From Leptospiraceae bacterium (lineage in GTDB: Bacteria > Spirochaetota > Leptospiria > Leptospirales > Leptospiraceae), in NCBI GenBank assembly GCA_015075105.1, contig JABTUZ010000001.1:1623001-1687000 (forward strand): a DNA stretch of 64,000 nt, read 5' to 3'. The number at the start of each line of letters is the position of its first letter. The first letter of the stretch is position 1. Of this stretch, positions 18,357 to 40,174 are shown one piece after another. The notes below the pieces were generated by a model. The model searched no databases. It worked only from the letters and a program-made list of their open reading frames with translations, and was not told the DNA's origin. The translations under genes were made by a program, and so were the position numbers.

Positions 18357-20407
18357 CGCACTTCAAAATGCACAGTATCCAATATCCCTTTTTTTTTGTC
18401 TATTAGTTGAAGAGTATGCCTCCCTGTCTTTAGAGTCCAGATCGCCCTCTCGGTATTGTTTGTATTTATTGAATTCCCATTAAGACTCCAAATAATATTA
18501 TCAGAAATAATTTCAGATTCAAAAATTAGTTTCTGGTTCTCTTCTGGTATGTCAGGATCGGCTGCAAAAATAGCTCCATCTACCGGATACCGAATTCTAT
18601 TTTTATTTACAGAATATATAAAGTTTTCCTTGTGTTCATTTTCTTTCATGGTTTTATCTACAAAATATTTTTTAGTATCTTTAGAATACTTTTCTTCCAA
18701 CCAATCAATCAGCTCTTTCCAAATCGGCGCAGATCCCGTCACTCCACTTACATTCCACATAGGCTCACCAGAAAAATTTCCTACCCACACACCTACAGTA
18801 AACTTATCAGAAAATCCAATGCACCAGTTGTCTCGCATATCTTTACTCGTTCCGGTTTTTACTGAAGCAGAAAATCGAGACGATAAAGAATTTTCTAAAC
18901 CAAAAGTAAGACTTCTATATTCCCTATCCGCCAAAATCTCTTTTATCGTTAAAGATGAACCTTCACTAAAAATTCTTTTTCTATCTATTTTTTTACTCGT
19001 ATCCGATAAATGGATTTCAGAATACACTCCCCCGTTGGCAAGAGTTCTGTACGCATTCGTTAGATCCCAAAGAGTTACATCCAAAGATCCAAGTGCAAGA
19101 GAAGAGCCGTAAAAGGAAGGGTATTCCAAGTCTCTAAATTTTAAAAAAGATAAAATCTGAAAAAAAGAATCTACACCAACCAAATTTAAAACTCTGACAG
19201 CAGGAACGTTCAGTGAAGACGCAAGTGCATTACTTGCAGTAACCATACCGTGGTAGTCTTTCTCATAATTAGATGGTCTGTAAATCCCGGAATAAGTAGA
19301 AATATCAATAGGAGAATCTTCCAACAAAGTTTCAGAAGATATAATTTTTTTATCAAAAGCAAGGGCATATAAGAAAGGTTTTAAAGTTGAGCCTGCCTGC
19401 CTTTTAGAAAAAACTGCATCTACCTCAGGACTCGTGGAGAATCTTCCTGAGCTTCCAATATATGCCAGCACGTCTCCAGTTGAGTTTTCGACTACAAGGA
19501 TAGCTCCATCTTTTACATTTTTTGTTTGCAAAGAAATCAAGTGCCTCTGCAAAATCTCATTAGAAGTTTTTTGGATTAGAAAGTCCAAACTCGATTGAAG
19601 GTATTTACTATATACGTCATGCGACATCTCTTTTAATTTTCGAGTAACATGGAACGCATAGAGTGTTTCTTTTTCTATATTGTATTTTTTTGAAAAACTT
19701 ATTTTTACTTTTTCTGTAATTTCTTCACAGGAAATCTCAGGTGATACCTTTTCAGAAACAGAACAAGAACGTTTTATGATTTTTTCTATATTAGAATTTG
19801 GAGAACGAATTAAAACAGATAAAATAATAGACTCAATTTCGTTCAATCCGTGAGGATGCTTTCCAAAAAGCCCTTTAGAGGCAGCCGCAACTCCGACAAG
19901 CTCTCCTCGAAAGGAAATCAGATTCAAATAGGCTTCCAATATTTCATTTTTTGTCCAAGTTTCTTCTAACTCTTTTGCTAAATGAATTTGTTTGATTTTC
20001 TGAAAAATACTTTTCCTTTTGCCTTTCCACTCTATATCACTTTTTAAAATAGTTGCAAGCTGCATACTGATCGTGCTTGCACCTCTTTTCCCTCGAAATA
20101 TAAAAAAATCAAGACTAGCTTTTGACAATGCAGTCCAGTCAACACCATTGTGCGAAAAAAAATTTTTATCTTCAGACAATAAGACTGCTTTTATCAAAGC
20201 AATAGATATTTCACTTAAATTACACCATTCTAATTTTCTTTCTGTATCAGAGGCTCTAAACTCATGAAGTATCACCCCATTTCTGTCGAATAACACTCCT
20301 TCCGATGACCTAAAATTTTCTTTTACTTTTTGGAAGGATGGAATTTCCTTAGAGTGTAAGGAAGTAAATAAAAAGTATAGCAATAGAAAAAATAATTTTC
20401 TTACCAA
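18353..20407 (-). CDS. pbpC: Penicillin-binding protein 1C (glycosyltransferase/transpeptidase)
   Basis: Bifunctional peptidoglycan synthase. After an N-terminal signal/anchor (LFFLLLYFLFTSL), the GT51 domain shows SEDKNFFSHNGVDW with the catalytic Glu, RGASTISMQL, and TKNEILEAYLN. The transpeptidase domain has the acyl-serine motif GSTLKPF, the SLN motif (ASSLNVPAVR) and KTGTS followed by RDNWCIGFSDKFTVGVWVGN. A C-terminal beta-rich domain of the BiPBP_C type follows. The length of 684 is somewhat shorter than E. coli PBP1C (~770). Its start overlaps the end of the upstream TPM-protein gene by 7 bases, placing it in the lemA-TPM operon. Confidence 0.92.
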   Translation of the reverse strand: MVRKLFFLLLYFLFTSLHSKEIPSFQKVKENFRSSEGVLFDRNGVILHEFRASDTERKLEWCNLSEISIALIKAVLLSEDKNFFSHNGVDWTALSKASLDFFIFRGKRGASTISMQLATILKSDIEWKGKRKSIFQKIKQIHLAKELEETWTKNEILEAYLNLISFRGELVGVAAASKGLFGKHPHGLNEIESIILSVLIRSPNSNIEKIIKRSCSVSEKVSPEISCEEITEKVKISFSKKYNIEKETLYAFHVTRKLKEMSHDVYSKYLQSSLDFLIQKTSNEILQRHLISLQTKNVKDGAILVVENSTGDVLAYIGSSGRFSTSPEVDAVFSKRQAGSTLKPFLYALAFDKKIISSETLLEDSPIDISTYSGIYRPSNYEKDYHGMVTASNALASSLNVPAVRVLNLVGVDSFFQILSFLKFRDLEYPSFYGSSLALGSLDVTLWDLTNAYRTLANGGVYSEIHLSDTSKKIDRKRIFSEGSSLTIKEILADREYRSLTFGLENSLSSRFSASVKTGTSKDMRDNWCIGFSDKFTVGVWVGNFSGEPMWNVSGVTGSAPIWKELIDWLEEKYSKDTKKYFVDKTMKENEHKENFIYSVNKNRIRYPVDGAIFAADPDIPEENQKLIFESEIISDNIIWSLNGNSINTNNTERAIWTLKTGRHTLQLIDKKKGILDTVHFEVR

Positions 20408-21369
20408 CTTCCAGATGCCCCTCCCCCTCCAAAACTCCCGCCTCCACCACTGTATGAAGAAGATGAGCTACTCGAAGAAGAAGAATAGGACGAAGAAGAA
20501 GATGATGACCAAGAAGAGCCAGAAGAAGAACTTGAACTCCCGGATGAAGAGCCTTCAAGAGAGCCAAGCCATTTAAAAAATCCGAATAAAAGAATATAGC
20601 CCGCAGAGATAGCCAAGGAAATATAAAAAGATTGGAAAATTAGGCTAAATTTATTTAAGATTAAAAATACTATAAAGCTAATTAAAAATACAACTGCTCC
20701 GGTTTTTAGCACTCCAAGTAGAACCGTAAAAAAAATCAATAAAACAAACCCGATCAAAGGCAAAAATGGAATCCAAGAATCATAAGAAGATTTTTTGTTA
20801 GAACTAGAATTTGTTGGAGCTTGTGGAGTAGTGTTTGCCGGCAAAGGAAGCTCCTCACCATCAATCACTTTGATAATCGCATCGACTCCTTTTTTTATTC
20901 CAAAAAACATATTTCCTTTTTTGAATTCCGGCGTGATTACCTCGGCTATAATCCTTTTGGACATTGCATCTGTAAGCACACCCTCCAAGCCTCGACCCAC
21001 TTCAATTCTTAGCTTTCTGTCATTTTTAGCAATCAAAAGTAAAACTCCGTCGTCCACCTTTTTTCGACCGAGCTTCCACTCATCCACTACCCTGATAGAA
21101 AATTGCTCAATAGTCTCCTCTTCAGTACTAGGCACTATCAGCACAGCCACCTGACTCCCTTTTCTATTCTCAAAATCTTTCAGTGTTTTTTCTAATTCCT
21201 TTTCTTGAGTATGAGTGATTGTACCTGTCAAGTCTGTGACTCTTTTTTGTAATTTAGGGATAGAGGCTTCGGAATAAACCGGGTTAAATCCTGTTATAAA
21301 CATAAGAAAAATTATGGCATTCAAAAGAAATTGAAACCCTGAAAATTTTTTTATATCATATTTATTCAT
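20401..21369 (-). CDS. TPM-domain membrane protein with Ser/Gly-rich tail
   Basis: A YgcG-type protein of 322 residues. After a signal-like N-terminal hydrophobic stretch (residues ~15-33) the TPM domain reads VTDLTGTITHTQEKELEKTL, GSQVAVLIVPS, VDDGVLLLIAKNDRKLRIEVGRGLEG and SKRIIAEVITPEF. Two or three hydrophobic segments follow (about 205-275). The tail from ~280 is almost pure serine, ending in GGGGSFGGGGASGSW, the low-complexity end typical of this family. TPM proteins are often paired with LemA, as here. In this family the tail may aid membrane or wall association; the precise role is unknown. Confidence 0.87.
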   Translation of the reverse strand: MNKYDIKKFSGFQFLLNAIIFLMFITGFNPVYSEASIPKLQKRVTDLTGTITHTQEKELEKTLKDFENRKGSQVAVLIVPSTEEETIEQFSIRVVDEWKLGRKKVDDGVLLLIAKNDRKLRIEVGRGLEGVLTDAMSKRIIAEVITPEFKKGNMFFGIKKGVDAIIKVIDGEELPLPANTTPQAPTNSSSNKKSSYDSWIPFLPLIGFVLLIFFTVLLGVLKTGAVVFLISFIVFLILNKFSLIFQSFYISLAISAGYILLFGFFKWLGSLEGSSSGSSSSSSGSSWSSSSSSSYSSSSSSSSSSYSGGGGSFGGGGASGSW

Positions 21370-22682: not shown

Positions 22683-23072
22683 ATGATATACTCTATGTCT
22701 AAAAAAAATACGACTCGACTTATCTTTTTTTTCTCTATAGCTTTTTTTATTCATTGCGGGGAAGCTACAAAGACACTTAATAAGTGCGAAGAAAAATGTG
22801 GTATAGAGCTTTCACTCTGCGCAATCGTAATAGGCAACAATCAAACGAATTATATCACAGAATCTTCATCAGGAGCCGTAGAATCAAAAACAACAAACTC
22901 CATAAACCCGGTAGGGGTCTATCTATGTTACATTATGAACAACACATGCAAATCTAGTTGCTATAAATCTTCATCCAATTCAACTCCAAGAACTACTTCC
23001 TCTTCTCGAAGCAGTTCATCAAGCTCTTCCGGGGGAGGAGGGAGTGCATCGGGTGGAGGAGCAGGAAGCTAA
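22683..23072 (+). CDS. Small Cys-rich lipoprotein with Ser/Gly tail
   Basis: A 129-residue predicted lipoprotein: after a basic start and hydrophobic LIFFFSIAFF comes HCGE, a loose spirochaetal lipobox. The mature part has six further cysteines, in KCEEKCG, LCAI, LCYI, TCK and SCY, suggesting disulfides. The last ~35 residues are Ser-rich and end in GGGGSASGGGAGS, very like the tail of the TPM protein encoded nearby at 20401-21369. No family is recognised. The start may be ATG at 22683 or the in-frame ATG at 22695. It is followed by the aminotransferase gene after 9 bases. Confidence 0.65.
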   Translation: MIYSMSKKNTTRLIFFFSIAFFIHCGEATKTLNKCEEKCGIELSLCAIVIGNNQTNYITESSSGAVESKTTNSINPVGVYLCYIMNNTCKSSCYKSSSNSTPRTTSSSRSSSSSSSGGGGSASGGGAGS

Positions 23073-23081
23073 GAAGAGCCT

Positions 23082-24242
23082 TTGAACCTATCCAAAAAAT
23101 TCCAAAATATTTTAGACGAAAATCCTATTTCAAAAGAGCTGAGACTATTATCAAAAAATATAGAGATAGACTTGACTATTTCAAATCCTTTGCAATCAGG
23201 AATTTCATTTCCAAAAAAAGAAATTTTAAACTCTCTGAAAAAACCAGATATTTTCAAGTACTCTCCGAATCCTAAGGGTAGTGAATTTGCCAGAACAGAA
23301 ATTCAAAAATACTATTTTTCAAAAAATGAAAATACCAAAATAGAGAATATTTTTCTTACCACGGGGACATCAGAAGGGTTTTCTTATTTACTAAAACTTT
23401 TAACTGATCCGGGAGATGATGTGATTCTTCCTTCCCCCGGATACCCTCTCCACGAATATCTTTGTATGAATGAAAATGTGGCACCCAGAAAATACCCATT
23501 ACGACATTTAGGGTTAGACAATGCCGGGTTTTCAAAATGGGAAATTGATTTTCAGGAATTAAAGAAAAAAATCTCAAAAAAAACAAAAGCAATTGTACTC
23601 GTCTCTCCAAACAATCCTACAGGTTTTATTCCAACAAGATTTGAAATTGATACGTTATGCGATATTGCTAACCAAAATAAAATTCCTATAATCGTAGATG
23701 AGGTTTTTTCTGACTACATCCATGACCCTAATGAGAAAATCCACAGTTTCCCAGAGGCTACACCCGTATTTTATCTAAACGGTATATCAAAAACTCTTGG
23801 GCTTTCCGGATTAAAACTTTCCTGGATACGGTTAAATTCTTCTGCCTCAGATGCAAATACTCTGCAAGCCTTAGAGTTTATCTCAGACTCCTATCTTTCT
23901 GTAAATGCACAAGTTCAATACGCTCTCAAAGATTTATTTTCTCTAAAAGAGAAGATTCAATCCAAGATAAAAGAAAGGCTAAATCAAAATATCTCTATAG
24001 CAGAAAATAGGGAAGACTCTAAGTTTACATTTTATAAGCCAAAAGCCGGCTGGTATGGAATGATAAAGTTAGAAACTAAAAAATCCGACGAAGAAATTGT
24101 GATTCGTTTACTAGAAAAAAATATTCTTACACACCCCGGTTATTTATTTGATTTAGAGAGTGAAGTATTCCTAATCGTTAGTCTTTTAACCGAAGAAAGA
24201 AAATTTCGCAAAGGACTAAAAATTATTTCTTCTCAAAAATGA
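23082..24242 (+). CDS. Class I/II PLP-dependent aminotransferase
   Basis: A fold type I aminotransferase of 386 residues. It shows TTGTSEGFSYLLKLL, PSPGYPLHEYL, the SPNNPTGFIPT motif, IIVDEVFSDYI, the PLP-lysine segment NGISKTLGLSGLKLSW, and a C-terminal domain. It is closest in pattern to aspartate/alanine-type aminotransferases; the substrate cannot be fixed. The start is TTG at 23082-23084 with GAAGAG shortly upstream, and no earlier start exists after the previous gene's stop. The last 10 bases overlap the end of the convergent TonB-receptor gene. Confidence 0.85.
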   Translation: MNLSKKFQNILDENPISKELRLLSKNIEIDLTISNPLQSGISFPKKEILNSLKKPDIFKYSPNPKGSEFARTEIQKYYFSKNENTKIENIFLTTGTSEGFSYLLKLLTDPGDDVILPSPGYPLHEYLCMNENVAPRKYPLRHLGLDNAGFSKWEIDFQELKKKISKKTKAIVLVSPNNPTGFIPTRFEIDTLCDIANQNKIPIIVDEVFSDYIHDPNEKIHSFPEATPVFYLNGISKTLGLSGLKLSWIRLNSSASDANTLQALEFISDSYLSVNAQVQYALKDLFSLKEKIQSKIKERLNQNISIAENREDSKFTFYKPKAGWYGMIKLETKKSDEEIVIRLLEKNILTHPGYLFDLESEVFLIVSLLTEERKFRKGLKIISSQK

Positions 24243-27181
24243 TAGCCCGCCGAAAACCAAATATTTCTTCTTTCCATCGGGTGCATTGTGGGGTAGTATC
24301 CACCGTCAGCTGCACGAATACCCGGATCAAAAAACTGCTCATTAGTCAAGTTATTCACGTGAAATTGCAAGAACATACCTTTTTTCCAAACATCTTCCCA
24401 ACGAATATTTAGCCTAAAAAACTTATACCCCGGAACAGACTTTTCCGGATTAGATGAAATAGTCCTTCGCACATCTACCCAATTGATTCCAAGATATATG
24501 GAAAGATTTTTCATAATATAGTAAGTCACCCCTAAGTTTCCTTTATTTTTTGCAATACTCGGAATAGCCCCTTTAGAGGGAACAGTGGCTTTGGCACCTG
24601 TAAGCTCCTTATAACCCTGCAAATAAACGTCATAAGCCGGGTCGTCTCCTGCACGTCCTGCGGTAGAAGGAGACTTCTGTAAACTCTTTGGTAAATCGTA
24701 ATATATACCATCCATGTAAGTATAGTTTATAGATATATTCAAATTACTCAAAATATGTGCATTTGCATCTGCCTCTATACCGTGAATTCTTGCTTTACCC
24801 AAGTTGTTATTCTGATTCCAAGGTGCAGTTGGAGTTTTTCCGTTTATGGTTGAAGTGTCCGTAGTTGCTACTTCCAAAATCAAATTAGAAATCTCATTGG
24901 AAAATGCTTGAACTGAAGTGTAATAATTTTTCAAGAAACGATAAGCCGCTCCAAGCTCAATAGAATTTAGCTTTTCCGGTTTTAGATCCGGGTTAGGTTT
25001 TCTTTGCCCTGTTTGAGAAAAAAGCTCTTGACCCGACGGCTCTCTAAATGCAGTTCCATACAATAATTTAAAAGTCAAATCTTTGGTAGGAGTGAAAACA
25101 GCACTTAGCCTTGGAGTACTTGCATATCCATAAGTAGTTATATAGTCTCGTCTAAACCCACCAGTCAGAGCCAATTTTTCAATCGGCCTCCACATCTGTT
25201 GGATATACACTGCATAGTTATTATACACAAATTGCTCATAGCTTCCATAATTTTTGGCTACTTGAAATCTTTTTGCCATTACCCCGGCGATGGTAGAAAA
25301 ATTGGAAGAAGGATTCCAAGAAAGTCTCTCTTCACCAAAATACGCATTGTCTGGTCGGCTATAATTTCCATAAATATTCACATCTCCCGGTCTGTAATTT
25401 CCGCCAGGGCCGTATTGCTTCGGCTCTTCTTCGTGGCTCGTACTTAGTATTTCCGTATGACGCACTGTCGCCTCCGAGTCTAAACTCAAGGTATCTGTAA
25501 TCTTATGCAAGTAACCGATTAAAGCAGTGTTATTTCTAAAATTCCAACCGGATCCAGAAAACCCCTGAGTCCCGTAAGTAGTGGATGTAGTGCCGTCGTC
25601 TTTTGTTTCCGTATTAGTCAACATTCCACTCGCAATCCCATAGAGTCTTGCTAAATTTCTTTTATCAAACTTCCCTGTCTCAAGTCCTCTTTGTTTCGTG
25701 TCAAGCTGTTGAGTTCCATTTGCGAAAGTACCTTCTCCCTGAATGTATTGCCAATGGATTGTTTCAAATCGAAACCCGCCTTTTGAAAACTTTGCTGTGA
25801 TGTTGTAGGTCTCTTGATTGGAGTTGTTGTAGGCGGGTGACCAGTAATAACCAACTGACTTGCTATTTGGGTTACACATACTGTTCCCACACATTTTTTT
25901 AGAAGCAGAATACACCGGATCATATTTGTAGTTGTAATTTGGGTTGTCTGTAGTCGCTCCGTACTTTGGAGGGTTTAAATTTTGAATCCCACCCATATCC
26001 GGACCTATAGACTGGTAGTAGTAAGCCCCGACACTGTACTGGATAGGGTTGTCTCCACCTGAATTTCCCCTCGCAGACAAACTCACTGCTTGCCCGGGTC
26101 TCTTGTTTTTTGGCTCCCAATATCCGTAAGTAGTATCTACGTGGTTTCCGGGGTTGGTAATTCCGTCTTTTGTGATAATGTTTATAATACCATTGAATGC
26201 GTTAGCTCCATAGAGAGAAGAAGCCGGACCGGCTACGACCTCGATTCTTTCAACATTGGCAAGAGGAAATTTATAACTTCCTCCAAGCATTGCATTCTCA
26301 GATAGGTTGTTGTCTGGAATCCCGTCCACATACAAAAGAGTTCTTTGCATATTTCCGATTAAACCTCTCTGGTGAGCCAAGTTATAATAAAGACCATTCG
26401 TATGCTGGAAATCAAATCCGGGGATATCGTGGAACGCATCCTCAATCGTCTGATACCCTCTTTCTCTAATCTGTTGAGCGGTAACTACATAAACTGCAGC
26501 GGGGGCATCCTTTATCTTGGTCTTGGTTCTAGTTGCGGTTACCACTTCAATATCTTCTAAAAATTTAAAAGTACTTGCAGCGCTTGCACTAACGTCTTCT
26601 TTCCGAATAGGAAAGCTAATGTCTTTTCCTAGTTGAGAGTTTCCTAAGAATTCGTTTACGTTTTCTGTCCTTTCCTTTCTACCTGTATTAATTTTAACTA
26701 GGATTACGATTTTAGACACAAATTTTGAAATGACTAAATTGTCCGATTCCTTGGTTTCCTCTTCCGGCAATTTGATCCCTGTAAGCCCTGTCAATTCTTC
26801 CGAAACATTCAAAGCATCTATGACAAACCCTGTTTCGGGATTGTAGATTTGAGCAAAAATTTCCAAGTTTTGATCCTTGACTTTTTTATAATACCCGCTT
26901 AAAAATACAGCCCCCTCTTCCGATTTTATTCTTGCAAGTGCCTCTGAGATACTTGAATATTGACTCGCCTTTTGTGCGTTGATTCCTTTTGCTTTAAAAT
27001 TTTTTAAAGTCTCTTCAATAATTTTTTCGGAAATAGAGCTATCGGAGGGAGATTTGTAGGCTTGGAAATTCCCTATATAGACTTTCTTTTTTTCTTTTGT
27101 CTGGGGAAATAACAATCCAGGAAAAAAAAATATCAATACTACAGAAATCAATCTGTTTTTATTTTTCCAAAATACAATCAT
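24233..27181 (-). CDS. TonB-dependent outer-membrane receptor with N-terminal extra domain
   Basis: A 982-residue outer-membrane receptor. After a signal peptide (LISVVLIFFFPGLLFPQ) a ~165-residue domain (YIGNFQAYKSPSDSSISEKI to about ALNVSEEL) precedes the plug; it looks like the small alpha/beta FlgO/TolB-N or CsgG-type domains, by eye only. A TonB-box-like EDIEVVTATRTKTKIKD and the plug domain (PAAVYVVTAQQIRERG, IDGIPDNN-type YVDGIPDNN, VERIEVVAGPASSLYGANAFNGIINI) follow, then a long barrel ending in the typical terminal aromatic WFSAGYHF. The substrate is unknown. It is the last gene of a three-gene unit with an ABC-type binding protein and a PP2C phosphatase. Confidence 0.9.
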   Translation of the reverse strand: MIVFWKNKNRLISVVLIFFFPGLLFPQTKEKKKVYIGNFQAYKSPSDSSISEKIIEETLKNFKAKGINAQKASQYSSISEALARIKSEEGAVFLSGYYKKVKDQNLEIFAQIYNPETGFVIDALNVSEELTGLTGIKLPEEETKESDNLVISKFVSKIVILVKINTGRKERTENVNEFLGNSQLGKDISFPIRKEDVSASAASTFKFLEDIEVVTATRTKTKIKDAPAAVYVVTAQQIRERGYQTIEDAFHDIPGFDFQHTNGLYYNLAHQRGLIGNMQRTLLYVDGIPDNNLSENAMLGGSYKFPLANVERIEVVAGPASSLYGANAFNGIINIITKDGITNPGNHVDTTYGYWEPKNKRPGQAVSLSARGNSGGDNPIQYSVGAYYYQSIGPDMGGIQNLNPPKYGATTDNPNYNYKYDPVYSASKKMCGNSMCNPNSKSVGYYWSPAYNNSNQETYNITAKFSKGGFRFETIHWQYIQGEGTFANGTQQLDTKQRGLETGKFDKRNLARLYGIASGMLTNTETKDDGTTSTTYGTQGFSGSGWNFRNNTALIGYLHKITDTLSLDSEATVRHTEILSTSHEEEPKQYGPGGNYRPGDVNIYGNYSRPDNAYFGEERLSWNPSSNFSTIAGVMAKRFQVAKNYGSYEQFVYNNYAVYIQQMWRPIEKLALTGGFRRDYITTYGYASTPRLSAVFTPTKDLTFKLLYGTAFREPSGQELFSQTGQRKPNPDLKPEKLNSIELGAAYRFLKNYYTSVQAFSNEISNLILEVATTDTSTINGKTPTAPWNQNNNLGKARIHGIEADANAHILSNLNISINYTYMDGIYYDLPKSLQKSPSTAGRAGDDPAYDVYLQGYKELTGAKATVPSKGAIPSIAKNKGNLGVTYYIMKNLSIYLGINWVDVRRTISSNPEKSVPGYKFFRLNIRWEDVWKKGMFLQFHVNNLTNEQFFDPGIRAADGGYYPTMHPMERRNIWFSAGYHF

Positions 27182-27249
27182 TCTCTTTTCCTTCTTGACG
27201 ATATTATTTTTATTCTCATAAATTCAATTCTTAGGTTTAGTAAAACCTA

Positions 27250-28815
27250 CTATTTTTTTGTTTTATCTATTAGCACCTTAATGGCTTCCTGTTTCTTATA
27301 CGAAAGCCTTAAATATTCCGTAGCTTCCTTGTTTCCAGGATCTACCAATAAAACATCCTCAAAAATGGTGATAGAGTTTTCATAGTCTCTGTTGTTGTAA
27401 TTTTTAATCCCATCTTTGATATAATCCGGAACCTTAAAAATTTCTCTACTTCTTGTTTGCGAAAGATCCGAGCTTGCCTTCGTGTTGGAGGGGAGAGTGC
27501 GTAAAGAAGCAAGAAATAGTTTTATCGCCTCAAATACCTTCCCTGCTCTCAAAGCGTTATTACCAGAGGTACGCTCCTGCTCGCTTTGACCGAGTACTGA
27601 TTTTTGGTATCCTTCCTTTGCAGAAACTAAGTTGGGATTGATATTCAAAATTTTCTGGTACTCGGCTCTTGCTTGAGAAAACCTACCTGCTTGAAAGTGC
27701 TCATTTGCCAAAAGCATATATTTTTTAGTTTCCGTGCCTGTCATCTTCTCGATCACAAGCTCTCTATACGCAGAGGCTGCCACGTTTTTAGGATCTCTTT
27801 TTAAAATCTCATCAAATATTATCTTTGCAGATTTTAATTTTCCTTCATTCAATTTATTTACACCAGCAACAAATAACCCTGTAAATTTTGCTCTGTCCAC
27901 AATCGCTTCAGGGACTTTGATTCCAGACTTTTTCGCATATTCTTCGTTTAAGAAAAAAGAAGATTGGTCTGGAAGTTTTACCCTTTCTTTAGAGCAGGTA
28001 GATTCTTTGGAATAAATTCTTTCACCCAACTGGCCCGTGATTACTCCAATCTTACTATAATCAGGACTAATCCCAAAAGTAGCTCCGATTTTCACTAAGG
28101 CCGGAAAACTTGTCATCAGTATAATTTTATTTTTCCTGCAAAACTCCGACAATTTCTCAAAATTCTCTTTGTTGTATAAGGGATCATTCACCATGTAGAA
28201 TGCGTCGGCTTTTCCTTTGATTTCTTCTAAGGCAGAACGAAAATCATCTGAAGAAGAAAGTCTTTTTTTGTGAAAATAAAGATTGTATTTTAAATCTGTG
28301 TATTCTCCCTCTGAGGCAACAAACTCACCGTCTGTGGTAGAATAAAAAGAATACACTCCCTTACTGTCGGGTAGAATATCTTTCAAAGTTTGAAAAAATT
28401 CCGAAACTGAAATATCCATACTTACACCACAAATATCTCCCGATTCCAATCCCAGAAATTTAGGAGAATTCACCATAGAAAAAACCAAAGGAGTCTTTTT
28501 CAAATATTCTCTTGCGAGTTTGGCGGCTGGTGCACCAATTGCAATAAACATCGGTATTCCAGAGGCTTCCAGTTCTCTAAAATACACGCTTAGGTCAGGG
28601 TTTTCTGATTTTAATATATCAAGGTAATTTATTTTTAATTCCATTTTAACGACTGACTGAATACCATAAAGACCCTGCTCATAAATCATACTATCCGAAG
28701 ACATGAGCACTTCTACCGGTCTGGATTCTTTTGAAAATAGAGTAGTCGAATTCAGTAAAATAACGAATCCAAAAATCAATCTAACTGCACGAAAAAATAT
28801 TGAGTTCTTTTTCAT
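27250..28815 (-). CDS. ABC-type substrate-binding protein fused to TPR repeats
   Basis: A 521-residue exported protein with a signal peptide (LIFGFVILLNSTTLFS). Residues ~30-300 resemble the uncharacterised ABC substrate-binding family PF04392 (IPMFIAIGAPAAKLAREYL, PLVFSMVNSP, FFQTLKDILPDSKGVYSFYS, ADAFYMVNDPLY). From ~310 onward there are several TPR-like units (NEGKLKSAKIIFDEILKRDP, AGRFSQARAEYQKILNINP, DYENSITIFEDVLLVDP). No permease or ATPase gene lies nearby, so a sensing or adaptor role is more likely than import. The gene starts one base after the phosphatase stop and is 68 bases from the TonB-receptor gene. Confidence 0.82.
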   Translation of the reverse strand: MKKNSIFFRAVRLIFGFVILLNSTTLFSKESRPVEVLMSSDSMIYEQGLYGIQSVVKMELKINYLDILKSENPDLSVYFRELEASGIPMFIAIGAPAAKLAREYLKKTPLVFSMVNSPKFLGLESGDICGVSMDISVSEFFQTLKDILPDSKGVYSFYSTTDGEFVASEGEYTDLKYNLYFHKKRLSSSDDFRSALEEIKGKADAFYMVNDPLYNKENFEKLSEFCRKNKIILMTSFPALVKIGATFGISPDYSKIGVITGQLGERIYSKESTCSKERVKLPDQSSFFLNEEYAKKSGIKVPEAIVDRAKFTGLFVAGVNKLNEGKLKSAKIIFDEILKRDPKNVAASAYRELVIEKMTGTETKKYMLLANEHFQAGRFSQARAEYQKILNINPNLVSAKEGYQKSVLGQSEQERTSGNNALRAGKVFEAIKLFLASLRTLPSNTKASSDLSQTRSREIFKVPDYIKDGIKNYNNRDYENSITIFEDVLLVDPGNKEATEYLRLSYKKQEAIKVLIDKTKK

Positions 28816-28816
28816 A

Positions 28817-31381
28817 TTAGGCAGTTACCTTTGATTTTTCTTCCATGATCTTCTCTAAATGGCTCAAATTCAACTCTGCGGTTTTAAACCCGGGGCGTAG
28901 GTTGATCGCTCTTGTCCATTGCTCTTTTGCCTGCTCATATTTGCCTATTCGATAGTAGGTGCTGGCTAAATTATTTCTCGCATGGTGGTTGCCGGGTGCA
29001 AGAACGAGCGCTCTATTGTAATATTTGATTGCGTCTTCCAAATGCCCTGTCAAAGAAGAGCAATTGGCGACTCGGAATAGTACGTAGGAATTTTGCTCGT
29101 CTCCTCTCAATATCCTTTCGTACAAATTCTGAGCGTGCACATATCTCTTCGCTGCATAGTTTTGGTCTGCTTCTTTGATGAGTTTTTCTATTTCCTCTTT
29201 GGAAATAATAATCTCTTCGTCTTCCTTTTCTTCATCAGGGATATTCTTTTTAGCGCGGTCAATTGCAAACTTCAACTGAATAGCTACAGAATCGTCTGGA
29301 TTTTTATCCAAGGCTCTACTGATCATAGTTTCTGCGCGCTTATAAATTTTTAGTTCAAGGTAGGACGCACTCAAATTGACTAAGTTTAAAAAATTATTCG
29401 GGTCTCTAAGAAATAGCCTCTCACCCACATCCACTGCTTCATTATACCTACCAATTTGTCTGTAAGCGTTGGATAAAGCGTAAATGTATTCATTGTCACC
29501 AGGATTAATTCCAAGGTATTGTTCTAAACACTCAATGGACTTAGAAATTTCTCCCTTATTAAAATACAATCTTGCAAGTAGTTTCAGTAAATCAGGAAAC
29601 TTAGGATTGTCTTGGAATAGGTTTTCTACCTTTTCCAAAGCCTCAGTGTCCTTCCCTGCTTCAATTAAGCTATAGCCTTCGCTTACAGACGCTTGCACCT
29701 CATAAGGAATATCTTCCGGGCTTACCTCTTGCAAGTCTTCTTTAAAGCTCACTCTCAGTATAGAAAAATCATCTATCACCTTCCCTGTTTCGTGGACTCT
29801 TTTTGCTATTTTTTCTATGTTGCCCTCACCCTCTTCCACTCTGCGAAGAAACTCTGTCTCATCCTCATTCATGGACTCAAGCTCGCTTTCTTTGTCCTTT
29901 ATCATCAGGTCGTCTCTACCGTCAGATCCCGTGATGATCACATCTCCCGGCATGAGTTGAAACACCCTCACAAAAAATCTTTCTTCTTGCTCTGGGGTAC
30001 CGATTTTTCTGAGAGCCAACTCTTCTTCCAAGAAACTAGCTTTTCCGTCACGATACAGAACAGTCCAAGGGTGCTCTGCATTGATATAATACATCATGCC
30101 TGTTTCATTATCCACAAGTCCCAAACAAATAGAAATATACATACTCCCTTCAAAGGATAGAAAAACATTGTGCAGATCCAAGAATCTCTCTTTTAGCCAA
30201 ATTTCAGGAAATAGTTTTTGATTTCTTTGCAGTCTGGATCGAATAAGCCCTGCATTGAACACTACCCCAAGAACTAAGGCTCCCCCTGCTCCTTGAATGG
30301 ACTTTCCCATTGCATCTCCGTTTAGAAATGCTGTATAATCTCTATTGTTCAACCGAATCGTATCCGTAATACAAATATCCCCCCCAATCTCTGAATGCCA
30401 TTGTCGAAACTCAAACTTCTTTTTTTGCTCCATGAAAAACTCTGTTTTCACAAACTGGCTGTTGTTGTTATTTGGTTGAAGTGGCTTCAATAATAGGGAT
30501 GTCAAATAATAGTCACCGTCTTGCTGTACTTTTAAGGCGTGAACTTGTTGCAAAGTTTGGTTTAGCTCTTCTGTTCTTTGACGAACCTTGTCTTCCAAGT
30601 TTTGGGTAAAATCCTGAATCTGAGTGGTCATCTGGTTGAACTGGGCTGCAAGCTGTCCAAGCTCGTCTTGCCCGGTCAGTTTAATTCTATGGTTAAGATT
30701 TCCTCCTCCAATAATCCTTGCACCATCCGAAAGTTTATTAATAGGCTTTGTCATGTATATCGCCAATACAAGCGCAATCAACGCACCTATAATCAAGAGT
30801 ATCCCGCCTACCCCAAAAATTGTAGTCCGAATCTTGACAACAGGCTCATAAACCTTTTCTTTATCGAATTCAAAAACTGCTGTTCCGACCCTCATTTTCT
30901 CTTTTTTGTAATCTATGAAAATCGGGTAAGCAAAACGTAAAACAATCTTAGAGCTTCCTTTTTGTGCTACCTCTTTCATATCAAGGGAAGTTAGTGTAGA
31001 AAAATATTTTAGATCAGACGGGTCAGCCCTTCTTCCTAACTCTTTTTCGTTTAACTCAGCAACGTATTTTCCGTCTATATTGATCAGATAGGAATCGAGT
31101 AAGCCGGAAATGTTACTCTCTTTTAGTCTGGAAACAGAGGTTCTTGTAGAATCAAAAGTTTCGTTGATAAGCAATTCTTCGGTTGCAAGGTTGGCAATAT
31201 TGTTGGCTAAGTTTCTACATACTTCAAATGTCTTGTCTAATACTACCGCTTGGTTTCGATAAAGTACAATAGCCGATAAAGGAATGACACTGAATAACAC
31301 TACCCCTGTTACAAGAATAATCAATTTGATCCGAATTTTCACATTTAAAAAAATTCTAAAAAAATTTTTTATAAGTCTCAT
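28817..31381 (-). CDS. Membrane HAMP/PP2C (SpoIIE-type) phosphatase with TPRs
   Basis: An 854-residue signal protein. Membrane segment 1 (~18-40), an extracytoplasmic sensor domain (~40-180), membrane segment 2 (~185-212), HAMP (~205-260), a coiled coil, the SpoIIE/RsbU PP2C domain (~330-540) and at least six TPRs to the end. PP2C metal-site aspartates are visible in EIGGDICITD, NGDAMGKSIQGAGGA and TGSDGRDDL. It probably dephosphorylates an anti-anti-sigma or other Ser/Thr phosphoprotein in response to an envelope signal. The ATG is preceded by AAGGAT at 8 bases. It heads the operon with the binding protein and TonB receptor. Confidence 0.9.
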   Translation of the reverse strand: MRLIKNFFRIFLNVKIRIKLIILVTGVVLFSVIPLSAIVLYRNQAVVLDKTFEVCRNLANNIANLATEELLINETFDSTRTSVSRLKESNISGLLDSYLINIDGKYVAELNEKELGRRADPSDLKYFSTLTSLDMKEVAQKGSSKIVLRFAYPIFIDYKKEKMRVGTAVFEFDKEKVYEPVVKIRTTIFGVGGILLIIGALIALVLAIYMTKPINKLSDGARIIGGGNLNHRIKLTGQDELGQLAAQFNQMTTQIQDFTQNLEDKVRQRTEELNQTLQQVHALKVQQDGDYYLTSLLLKPLQPNNNNSQFVKTEFFMEQKKKFEFRQWHSEIGGDICITDTIRLNNRDYTAFLNGDAMGKSIQGAGGALVLGVVFNAGLIRSRLQRNQKLFPEIWLKERFLDLHNVFLSFEGSMYISICLGLVDNETGMMYYINAEHPWTVLYRDGKASFLEEELALRKIGTPEQEERFFVRVFQLMPGDVIITGSDGRDDLMIKDKESELESMNEDETEFLRRVEEGEGNIEKIAKRVHETGKVIDDFSILRVSFKEDLQEVSPEDIPYEVQASVSEGYSLIEAGKDTEALEKVENLFQDNPKFPDLLKLLARLYFNKGEISKSIECLEQYLGINPGDNEYIYALSNAYRQIGRYNEAVDVGERLFLRDPNNFLNLVNLSASYLELKIYKRAETMISRALDKNPDDSVAIQLKFAIDRAKKNIPDEEKEDEEIIISKEEIEKLIKEADQNYAAKRYVHAQNLYERILRGDEQNSYVLFRVANCSSLTGHLEDAIKYYNRALVLAPGNHHARNNLASTYYRIGKYEQAKEQWTRAINLRPGFKTAELNLSHLEKIMEEKSKVTA

Positions 31382-31764
31382 GCTTAAACATCCTTTTATT
31401 CAACAAATCTAAAATGGCGTTTTACAATAAAAAATGAAATCTCCTAAATAAGAAAGCCTGTCAAAACCCTATTTACCCAATTTCCAAATGAAAATAATTT
31501 AAATTCATCCCATTTTTTCTTTTTTTCTCTGCAAAAACTCTAAAATTTTCTTTATTCCGAAAAGTATGTCAAGTGTTTTTCAAAAAAAGTGTAAGAATCT
31601 TATTTTTAAGAAAAAACAATGTTCACTATGGTGAAAAAATAAGATATACAGAAAATCCAAGAAACAATTAACAAAATTTTCTGCGCAATTAAAGAGTATA
31701 AGACATATTTCATTTGATTTCAAGACCACGAAAAAAAGATTAGTTTTACCAGTCTTCAAATACA
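31382..31764. other. Intergenic region between divergent phosphatase and AraC-type genes
   Basis: 383 bases of very AT-rich DNA between two divergently read genes. It must hold promoters for both. On the minus strand a TTGACA lies at 31457-31462 upstream of the phosphatase gene, but I see no convincing -10 at proper spacing. A 61-codon frame on the minus strand (31580-31765) has no family features and a biased composition, so I do not call it a gene. No RNA gene, repeat or terminator was recognised. Confidence 0.5.
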
Positions 31765-32805
31765 ATGAATTTTATTTTTTACACTGCCATCTTTTTTAGT
31801 ATTTCTATTGGTTTTTATACTTTATTTCTGCATAAAAAACACTCCGGAATCATTTACTCATCTCTACTCTCTATCGTTAACGGAATTTGCCTCATCTTTG
31901 GCTCTTTGCACTTTTCTAAAGAAATCTACAATTACCCAAATCTACTCAGAGTAGAATTGATTTTTATCAGTCTTCTCGGAGGGTTCACCTACATTTCAAC
32001 GAGAGCAGCATTGGCTCAATCTAACCGACCCAAACCAAACGACCTGTATTTTTTCATTGTCCCAAATTCTGTATTTTTTTACCTCTTGCCTTTTTTGCTA
32101 TCAGACATAAGTGCGAAAGAATCTATATTGGGGATAAACACTGACTATTACGTGATTTTTGCAATTTGTGGAGTGAATCATTCTGTAGGAATATATTTTT
32201 CACATTTACTGTTTGTACAAAAATTAGACAAAAAAAAGAGTCTCTTACTAAAAATCTTTGCATCTATTGCAATTTTACTGAACCTATTTTCTTCATTGAA
32301 TACATTCCTTATATTATCGGGAGGGTTCTCCTTCATTTTTTCTTTACCATCATTGGCTATTTCAATTGCAATAATAGTTCATCGCTACTTAGCCACAAAG
32401 AAAAATTCATCTGTCTATACTCGAGAGGAAATAGACCCGGATTCAATAAATTCAAAACCAAACTCTAAGCCATCTATCAAAGAAGAAGTGTTGCACTACC
32501 TTGAAAAAGAAAAACCTTTCCTAAATCCTGACTTCCAATTAAAAAATCTTTCCAAAGAATTTCAAATTTCTAAGGAAGAAACTTTGAAAGTTTTTTCTGA
32601 AAATTTTGGAAAAACTTTTTACGAGCTAATAAACGAATTCAAAGTCCAAGAAGCAATTAAAAAACTTCAAGATAAAAAGAATACAAAGAAAAGTATAACA
32701 AAAATTAGTATAGAATCCGGGTTTCGATCTAACTCCAATTTTTTGGCAATTTTTAAAAAAGCTACAGGCAAATCACCTGCCGAATACAGAAAATTTCAAA
32801 GATAA
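31765..32805 (+). CDS. Membrane-bound AraC-family transcription regulator
   Basis: A 346-residue protein with about seven hydrophobic helices in residues 1-215 (FYTAIFFSISIGFYTLFL onward) and a C-terminal AraC-type double helix-turn-helix from ~245 (HYLEKEKPFL, LSKEFQISKEETLKVF, and the second HTH KISIESGFRSNSNFLAIFKKATGKSPAEYRKF). This layout is common in Leptospira and Bacteroidetes regulators that sense a membrane signal. It is divergent from the phosphatase operon, an obvious candidate target. Its stop is 12 bases from that of the convergent U32 gene. Confidence 0.88.
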   Translation: MNFIFYTAIFFSISIGFYTLFLHKKHSGIIYSSLLSIVNGICLIFGSLHFSKEIYNYPNLLRVELIFISLLGGFTYISTRAALAQSNRPKPNDLYFFIVPNSVFFYLLPFLLSDISAKESILGINTDYYVIFAICGVNHSVGIYFSHLLFVQKLDKKKSLLLKIFASIAILLNLFSSLNTFLILSGGFSFIFSLPSLAISIAIIVHRYLATKKNSSVYTREEIDPDSINSKPNSKPSIKEEVLHYLEKEKPFLNPDFQLKNLSKEFQISKEETLKVFSENFGKTFYELINEFKVQEAIKKLQDKKNTKKSITKISIESGFRSNSNFLAIFKKATGKSPAEYRKFQR

Positions 32806-32817
32806 AAGTTTGGACTC

Positions 32818-34143
32818 CTATTTTTCAATATTTGAGTTTTTTAAAATACTTAAAAAAGAATTTTCCGGTATTTCAAACGGAACCTTCAACCGAATTTCTC
32901 CCATACCTCCACTCAGCACGTCTTTCAAAACATTTTTATGGTAGATCTCAGATACTTGAAAAGTTTTTGTATTTCTCTCGCTCGGAAAAAAAACCTCTAC
33001 AGTATCTCCGATTTGCACCTTGTTCTTAATTTCAATTTGGATACTCTGTCCCTTTTTATCAAAAAATATCACCCGCCCCAAATACACTTGGTTTTGATTT
33101 CCACTCACCCCTTCTTCGTGATTCTGAAAATCCATCTCTTCCGAAGTTACTCTATCCTCCATTCCATAAGTCAGAAATCCTGAAAAATATTTTCTGGAGG
33201 CAACTTTTTCCAACTCCTTCAATAAGCCCCTGTCAAATGATTTTTCCTCTTTGATGTCGTCTAACGCATTTCTGTAAGACTTGGCTACTATTGCTACATA
33301 GTAATCGTTTTTGGTGCGTCCTTCCACTTTAATCGAATCTATTCCTGCCTCTGAAATTTCCTTCAAAAATTCAATCGCTCGAAGATCCTTGGAATTCATT
33401 AAATACGTTCCATTCTCATCTTCCTCGATTTCCATAAATTCATCGTTTTGTCTAAGATTTTTTACTACTACCTGATACTTATCCCTACAAGCGTTGTTGC
33501 ACGCTCCTTGGTTTGCGTCTCTTTTTGCAAAATAATTACTCATAAAGCACCTTCCACTATGAGCTATACAAATCGAGCCGTGAACAAATACTTCCAATTC
33601 CATAGAAGGCACTTCGTTTTTAATTTCTCCTGCCTCTCGAATACTGACCTCTCTAGATAAAATTACCCTTTTTGCACCTATCTTTTCCCAAAATTTTACG
33701 GCCGCATAATTCATCGTATTTGTCTGAACCGAAATATGTATATCTATTTCTGGTGTACGCTCACGGGCAACTAGTATTAACCCCGGGTCTGCCATAATAA
33801 ATGCGTCAGGCGACATTGCTGCCATTTCATCAAGATATTTTGGAAAATTCGGCAGTTTGGAATTTCTGGGGATTGCATTTATTGTAAAATATATTTTTTT
33901 GCCTAAACTTCGAGTAAAGGCGACCGCTTCCTTCAAAGACTCCAATCGAAATTCATTTTCTCTTGCACGAAGGGAATAGCGAGGAACCCCGCAATACACC
34001 GCATCCGCACCAAACAGAAATGCAGTCTTCATTTTCTCCGGACTTCCTGCGGGTAAAAGAAGCTCCGGAATTTTTATCCTTTTACTTTTTTCTTCTTCGG
34101 CTACTTTTTCTTTCAGAAGCCCCGCCTGCGCTATTGGATACAT
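32818..34143 (-). CDS. trhP: U32 family protein, probable tRNA hydroxylation protein TrhP
   Basis: Matches the E. coli YegQ/TrhP type closely by memory: [36 protein letters not shown] near the start (given in parts here), [32 protein letters not shown], the cysteine cluster [24 protein letters not shown] and [11 protein letters not shown]. In E. coli TrhP makes 5-hydroxyuridine at tRNA position 34. The ATG at 34143 overlaps secA by 62 bases and adds 24 residues with no family counterpart. An ATT at 34069-34071, just before PELL and 5 bases after AGGA, lies where E. coli TrhP begins, so the true start is uncertain. Confidence 0.88.
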
Positions 34144-38764: not shown

Positions 38765-40174
38765 ATTTCCGAACGCTTTCAACTCTCTTTCAATACAAAA
38801 GGAATTCAAACTCTATTCGATACACAATACAATCAATTTGTACATTCTAACTCTAATCCTATTATAGAAGCAGATAGATTTCTTGAAGTCCATTTTAAAA
38901 ACTCAGATCCAAAATCGACTCTATATATTTTTTTTGGGGTAGGTTTAGGATTTCATCTAAAACAAATCCCAAATATACAAAAAGAAAAAGTTTCCGTTTT
39001 GGCTTATGAGCCTTTTACAGAGCTTAAAGAAAATAAAAAAATTCAAACTATTCTAAAAGAAACTCAATCAGAATTGCAAAATCTTGGGCACTCTATTTCA
39101 TTTTTAGAATTGTCTGAGCTGAATACTTTTTTTTTAAAGAATAAAACGAATATCCAATTTATCGTCCTGCCTTTTTATAATAGAAATGTAAAAGAAGAGT
39201 TTGAAATTTTTTCCAATCTCATATTAAAGAGCCTAAAACCGGACACCAATAAAAATACTAAAGAATATTTTTCTAAAATATGGTTGAAAAACTATGCAAT
39301 AAATATTCAAGAATTGAAAACAAAAGAATATACTCTCCTCCACGCCAACCTATTCGATATAAAAGAAAAATTGGTATTATTTATCGGGGCATCTCCTGAG
39401 TTAGAAGACGATATACCTTGGATCTTGCAACATCAAAAAAATATATTTATAATCAGTAGCGACACCTCTTCTTATTATTTATACAAAAATAATATTTATC
39501 CCGACTTAGTAATAAGCATTGATTCAGGAAGAGGGACTGCACTTCATTTTAGAGAAGATTTTCCAAGCTCCATCCCTATCTTAACATGGATAGGGGGTAA
39601 TCCAGAAATATTCAAAAAAGAAAACCCTCTAATCTTGTATTTTTCTTCCTATCCTTTGGATCAAACGCTTGCAGAGATTTTAAATCTTTCTTCATGCGTT
39701 ATACGAAACCCTTCTTTAAATATTGCAGGGCTAGCCAAAGCACTATCTATATTTTGTGGAGCGAAAGCAATTGCGTATTCTGGAGTCTCCTTTCTTTCAA
39801 AAAGTTTCCAGTCGCACTGCAAAGGAACAGGATACGAAAATTTTTTCTTACCCCAAACAAATAGGAAACACACTTTGGAGTCTATATCTTCGAGAGTGTA
39901 CAATAACTCAATATCTAAAAAAAATACTATCGCACTAAATGAATTAAGAAAATCAGATCAGATAAAAACTTTTATGAATGTAGGAATCCAAATTGATAAA
40001 GATTTTTTTTCATCCACTGTTCGTGGTTTTGTATTAAAAGAGTCTGATACGCTTCCATTGGACAAATTCCTCAATTCTTTGAAAACCCCTGCAATCAAAA
40101 AAGAGTTGAAAAAAGAATTACACATCTCACAAAAAGAATGGAAAAAATTGCTATCTACAATTCATCCTTCCTGA
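38765..40174 (+). CDS. Maf/DUF115 motility-associated protein, probable ATT start
   Basis: A DUF115 (MptE-like, motility accessory factor) protein, a family linked to flagellin glycosylation. The DUF115 core is visible: LVLFIGASPELEDDIPWIL, FIISSDTSSYYLYKNNIYPDLVISID, then SIPILTWIGGNPE and LAKALSIFCGAKAIAYSGVSFLS. The first canonical start is a TTG at 38999, but the frame upstream back to 38753 is open and codes the usual Maf N-terminal segment (LYIFFGVGLGFHLKQI, VSVLAYEPFTEL). Starting at ATT 38765 gives 469 residues. No motility genes are adjacent. Function is confident at family level only. Confidence 0.8.
   Translation: MSERFQLSFNTKGIQTLFDTQYNQFVHSNSNPIIEADRFLEVHFKNSDPKSTLYIFFGVGLGFHLKQIPNIQKEKVSVLAYEPFTELKENKKIQTILKETQSELQNLGHSISFLELSELNTFFLKNKTNIQFIVLPFYNRNVKEEFEIFSNLILKSLKPDTNKNTKEYFSKIWLKNYAINIQELKTKEYTLLHANLFDIKEKLVLFIGASPELEDDIPWILQHQKNIFIISSDTSSYYLYKNNIYPDLVISIDSGRGTALHFREDFPSSIPILTWIGGNPEIFKKENPLILYFSSYPLDQTLAEILNLSSCVIRNPSLNIAGLAKALSIFCGAKAIAYSGVSFLSKSFQSHCKGTGYENFFLPQTNRKHTLESISSRVYNNSISKKNTIALNELRKSDQIKTFMNVGIQIDKDFFSSTVRGFVLKESDTLPLDKFLNSLKTPAIKKELKKELHISQKEWKKLLSTIHPS

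Follow-up and report, generated by a model that had tools for sequence, protein, structure and literature searches.

A 64,000-nucleotide stretch of the genome of an uncultivated member of the Leptospiraceae (the window) carries three adjacent genes on its minus strand. They encode a Cache-HAMP-SpoIIE/PP2C-TPR sensor phosphatase of 854 amino acids (28817..31381), a secreted ABC_sub_bind binding protein of 521 amino acids with C-terminal TPRs (27250..28815), and a TonB-dependent receptor of 982 amino acids with an N-terminal extension (24233..27181). A single nucleotide lies between the phosphatase and binding protein genes and 68 nucleotides between the binding protein and receptor genes and, judged by spacing and orientation, the three are a predicted operon. 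Open reading frames and Pfam matches agree with a sequence-only reading that had placed a HAMP/PP2C/TPR phosphatase, a TPR-bearing binding protein and an N-extended TonB receptor in one operon; its remark that the operon lacks permease and ATPase genes is borne out, since the flanking 8 kb contain neither an ABC ATPase nor a typical permease. The same reading had pointed to a divergent membrane AraC regulator, and the gene is indeed present (31765..32805, plus strand), with six hydrophobic segments and an AraC-type HTH recognized by Pfam. AraC relatives are found nowhere near the modules of relatives, and we do not count this gene as a module part. Two further genes of the window, close to each other (20401..21369 and 22683..23072), encode secreted proteins with long Ser/Gly-rich tails.

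Domain architecture of the three proteins

The phosphatase, whose pairing with the binding protein recurs in relatives, possesses two hydrophobic segments (residues 18-36 and 188-206) that bound a periplasmic domain (about residues 37-187; 30821..31273). In an AlphaFold model of the sensor (pLDDT 71.7, rising to 80-90 within the Cache-like part) this domain resembles a single Cache; its best complete Foldseek match is the extracellular domain of WalK (target TM 0.74), and the matches include DctB and CitA with ligands. A HAMP domain follows (residues 206-257; 30611..30766; PF00672, 2.2e-14), so that a Cache-HAMP architecture is predicted. The cytoplasmic portion comprises a SpoIIE/PP2C phosphatase domain (residues 348-546; 29744..30340; PF07228, 5.4e-22), whose metal-binding acidic motifs are intact by motif alignment and whose activity is predicted, and a region matching Pfam TPR families (residues about 572-832; 28886..29668).

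The binding protein matches PF04392 (3.5e-19) and TPR_2 (5e-12), yet falls far under the cut-off of the TrpX model (64 vs 390 bits). Its solved relatives are 6hni, 3lkv and 3lft. Only two PF04392 genes are present in the whole genome, each inside a module of this type.

The receptor has clear plug and barrel domains (Pfam Plug, 1.2e-22; TonB barrel, 1.2e-43), and the approximately 200 residues ahead of the plug match no Pfam family, STN included. Signalling domains of TonB receptors sit ahead of the plug, as does this domain. The region (residues 1-205 with the signal peptide; 26567..27181) is conserved in the receptors of relatives, and its model (mean pLDDT 72.7, core about 90) matches HpaA, PelC, TolB, FlgT and LpoB in Foldseek (E 8.8e-6 to 1e-3) as well as CsgG, all of them envelope proteins. 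With target TM-scores no higher than 0.58, which is modest, these matches indicate a fold class and not family membership; the domain models as a TolB-N/PelC/LpoB-like fold and not as a FecA-type signalling domain. The TolB-N-like fold is known from periplasmic interaction proteins. A weak match to the domain elsewhere in the window (38954..39217) was set aside, the open reading frame listed there being MptE-like. Receptors bearing this N-terminal domain also stand alone, without a binding protein, in some relatives and in the source genome. Two such receptors lie in tandem without binding protein or sensor at L080:5938-11612 (about 889937-895611 of G000:C1, the source genome), and a STAS-like gene of the same strand (L080:4754-5086) is situated further downstream, separated from them by other genes.

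Co-occurrence, pairing and exchange of outputs

Conservation of the three parts was surveyed across 61 genomes of the phylum, with the binding protein counted by strong matches and presence thresholds set by eye at the gap in scores. Binding protein, receptor N-terminal domain and sensor half occur together in the same 22 genomes, spread over three families; the trio, whose conservation across Leptospiraceae the earlier reading had named as a check, is conserved. The binding protein is absent outside these 22 genomes, and the N-terminal domain occurs without the other two parts in one genome (G004, 75% complete). In Fisher tables, binding protein versus sensor gives 22/0/0/39 and binding protein versus N-terminal domain gives 22/0/1/38; the former becomes 22/0/2/37 once weaker sensor relatives in two genomes (G014 and G022) are counted. 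The p-values ignore kinship, yet genomes with and without the parts are interspersed within families and even within one genus (g6). The grouping of the three genes exceeds chance in this co-occurrence over 61 genomes.

In several relatives the receptor gene is divergent or about 15 kb off, and in one genome the sensor lies on another contig. The earlier reading had held that finding the genes apart in relatives would speak against a single chain; this holds in part, some receptors of this type in relatives lying away from the binding protein. A pattern scan of named genomes, whose patterns reach close relatives only, returned 10 loci, all from metagenome-assembled genomes named Leptospiraceae, Leptospirales or Spirochaetaceae bacterium, and returned no module from the genus Leptospira.

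At least two modules are present in each of four genomes, and paralogues were re-paired within genomes, so that species history was held fixed. The correlation of the true pairing was equalled or exceeded in 7 of 960 re-pairings for sensor and binding protein, in 2 of 960 for sensor and TPR part, in 8 of 960 for sensor and N-terminal domain, and in 13 of 960 for binding protein and N-terminal domain. Judged by this test, modules evolve as units; the signal alone does not establish contact, because co-inheritance of a cassette would yield the same result. The weaker sensor relatives of G014 and G022 (L099:8130-10614 and L100:5691-8267), which have a cyclase output, adjoin a TPR protein without a binding-protein domain, and the TPR part may therefore be the sensor contact.

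The second PF04392 gene of the genome (G000:C1:787865-789343) belongs to a second module with a TPR binding protein, a receptor bearing the same N-terminal domain, and the same sensor half, in which a class III nucleotide cyclase takes the place of the PP2C-TPR output. The sensor halves of the two modules are 47% identical. Across the modules of relatives the sensor half is likewise kept and joined to SpoIIE plus TPRs, an RsbU-like SpoIIE domain, a cyclase or a histidine kinase. A tree of the sensor halves, in which several branches are long and one kinase (L055) was scored as unknown, needs six output changes against a minimum of four. The cytoplasmic Ser/Thr phosphatase that the earlier reading put at the end of the chain is thus one among four or more exchangeable outputs. 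At two loci (L053:1745-8142 and L054:4730-11167) two sensors, one with an RsbU-like phosphatase and one with a PAS-cyclase as output, come after a single binding protein. A 1073-residue protein of these loci was considered as a fusion of binding protein and sensor and rejected; it is without PF04392 and consists of an unassigned N-terminal part, sensor, PAS and cyclase. At a further locus (L034), two receptors with the N-terminal domain follow one binding protein.

No anti-sigma or STAS gene adjoins the locus, and its annotated neighbours (22683..34143) include neither a FecR-type anti-sigma factor nor an ECF sigma factor. Beside RsbU-type modules in relatives, in contrast, lie a gene with a weak match to HATPase/DUF6272, one resembling SiaC and one for a further SpoIIE protein, the HATPase/DUF6272 and SiaC-like matches being below Pfam cut-offs. 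The anti-sigma partner that the earlier reading suggested looking for is not found beside the locus, although partner-switch-like genes accompany those modules. HATPase_c_2 has 12 matches elsewhere in the genome, and a remote partner is therefore possible.

More distant trios occur in the phylum. Six loci (L114, L119, L120, L122, L067 and L121; the genes of L122 and part of L120 were assigned by sequence likeness) combine a TPR-less PF04392-type protein with a HAMP-SpoIIE-type protein and a TonB-type receptor. A small phosphonate-type binding protein (PF12974) also adjoins the trio at L119 and L067, and at L068 a pair of PF04392-type and PF12974 proteins is found with a HAMP-SpoIIE protein. 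The TPR-less trios are without permease or ATPase and without the receptor N-terminal domain; TPRs and N-terminal domain are therefore not essential to the design. From these comparisons, an older design that already had no permease seems to have gained both of them later, in the class to which the window's module belongs.

A proposed trans-envelope sensing model and its alternatives

Taken with this comparative record, the three proteins of the operon probably make up a trans-envelope sensing module. What computation shows directly is the gene content, the domain assignments, the conservation and co-occurrence of the parts, the swapping of outputs and the absence of the permease family. The earlier suggestion of a trans-envelope chain rather than a simple importer survives in its main point, the trio being conserved, PF02653 absent and the output swapped, but not in every detail: the phosphatase is one of several outputs, the AraC gene is not conserved beside the modules of relatives, and no anti-sigma gene adjoins the locus.

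The contacts, their order, the ligand, and the direction and on/off sense of the signal form the inferred part. In the scheme we favour, the TonB receptor would bind an external ligand, as its family does, and probably take it in. Its TolB-N-like domain, in the modelled fold, probably docks the binding protein and may relay either the state of the receptor or the ligand itself. The permease-less ABC_sub_bind-TPR protein would act as a ligand-binding adaptor in the periplasm and report to the inner-membrane Cache-HAMP sensor, the step that pairing supports best. The sensor, from family knowledge, would set the activity of the enzyme on the cytoplasmic side, which in this operon is a TPR-bearing SpoIIE/PP2C Ser/Thr phosphatase and in sister modules an RsbU-like phosphatase, a cyclase or a histidine kinase. 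A number of receptors may converge on a single adaptor, as the two receptors of L034 and the orphan receptors would allow, and one adaptor may serve two outputs, as at L053 and L054.

An uptake system is unlikely; in it the receptor would import a ligand across the outer membrane, the binding protein would deliver this ligand to an ABC permease whose gene lies in another part of the genome, and the phosphatase would do no more than regulate uptake. PF04392 proteins and TonB receptors both belong to transport families, and a binding protein gene may sit apart from its permease gene. PF02653 is the relevant permease family, because a true importer of the same phylum (L116) has genes for a PF02653 permease and an ABC ATPase after its PF04392 gene. 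This family is present in 12 of 14 control genomes, yet is absent from the source genome, which is 99.97% complete. Nor do the 8 kb around any of 35 module binding proteins, shortened at some loci by contig ends, contain an ABC ATPase; the ATPase pattern used recovers known ATPases in other loci. Hence the cognate permease or ATPase that would have pointed to import was found neither in the genome (PF02653) nor near the modules (ATPase). The fusion of the binding protein to TPRs and the retention of the sensor half while the output is swapped also argue against uptake, and the comparative evidence favours a predicted signalling module over an importer. At four distant PF04392 loci (L113, L115, L117 and L118) no sensor, TonB receptor or ABC ATPase was recognized among the neighbours.

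Two other explanations dispense with the adaptor or with the chain altogether. The receptor might signal straight to the sensor, or the Cache domain of the sensor might bind the ligand, leaving the binding protein as a scavenger, buffer or assembly factor. Cache domains often bind small ligands themselves, as the matches to ligand-bearing DctB and CitA recall, and the sensor relative of G014 and G022 stands with a TPR protein that has no binding-protein domain; the inseparability of binding protein and sensor half over 22 genomes, and a pairing between them that is the tightest of all, make this reading improbable. That the neighbourhood is a regulatory convenience, with co-expression for one stress and no shared signalling path, would suit the differences in gene order and distance between relatives, but it is hard to reconcile with genes that are conserved across three families and duplicated together, and with exchange of the output behind a constant sensor half, and we consider it very unlikely.

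The sensing module that we prefer has partial counterparts among known systems. What is known of signalling by TonB receptors concerns chiefly anti-sigma factors. In the FecA-FecR-FecI and FoxA-FoxR-FoxI cell-surface signalling systems, an extra periplasmic N-terminal domain of the TonB receptor informs the inner membrane (PMC11637429). Like FecA and FoxA, the receptor described here has a periplasmic domain ahead of the plug, conserved in relatives; unlike them, it has no STN match and no FecR-type anti-sigma or ECF sigma gene for a neighbour, the place of these regulators being taken by a binding protein together with a Cache-HAMP sensor that has enzymes as its outputs. The module resembles cell-surface signalling in outline but fails its defining features and is therefore not classed there. 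With TrpXYZ-type ABC importers (PF04392, PF02653 and ATPase, as in L116) it shares the family of the binding protein, but it differs in lacking permease and ATPase, in the fused TPRs and in the presence of a sensor and a TonB receptor. LuxP-LuxQ and TorT-TorS are examples of binding-protein-assisted sensor kinases, in which the membrane sensor is believed to be informed by a soluble binding protein of the periplasm; here the binding protein is of another family, the set includes an outer-membrane receptor, and PP2C phosphatases or cyclases are frequent outputs. The phosphatase is also similar to SiaA of the SiaABC partner-switch pathway (PMC7647112), a membrane HAMP protein with PP2C output, and gives a partial NCBIfam match to it. 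That match is under the SiaA cut-off (66 vs 700 bits), the protein has C-terminal TPRs, and in place of SiaB or SiaC the locus holds a TonB receptor and a binding protein.

Every module part has a known analogue. Searches of part of the literature returned no published description of these parts combined with exchangeable outputs. We tentatively propose, at odds slightly short of even, a distinct class of trans-envelope signalling made up of a TolB-N-docking TonB receptor, a transport-free TPR adaptor and a Cache-HAMP sensor with exchangeable output. If correct, the model would give these spirochaetes a general means to read external ligands via phosphatases, cyclases or kinases, and would account for PF04392 binding proteins that occur without transporters. 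It also names a testable interface, formed by the receptor N-terminal domain, the TPR adaptor and the Cache sensor. The source genome as a whole (3.4 Mb) contains 28 places with a SpoIIE/PP2C domain and seems unusually rich in such phosphatases.
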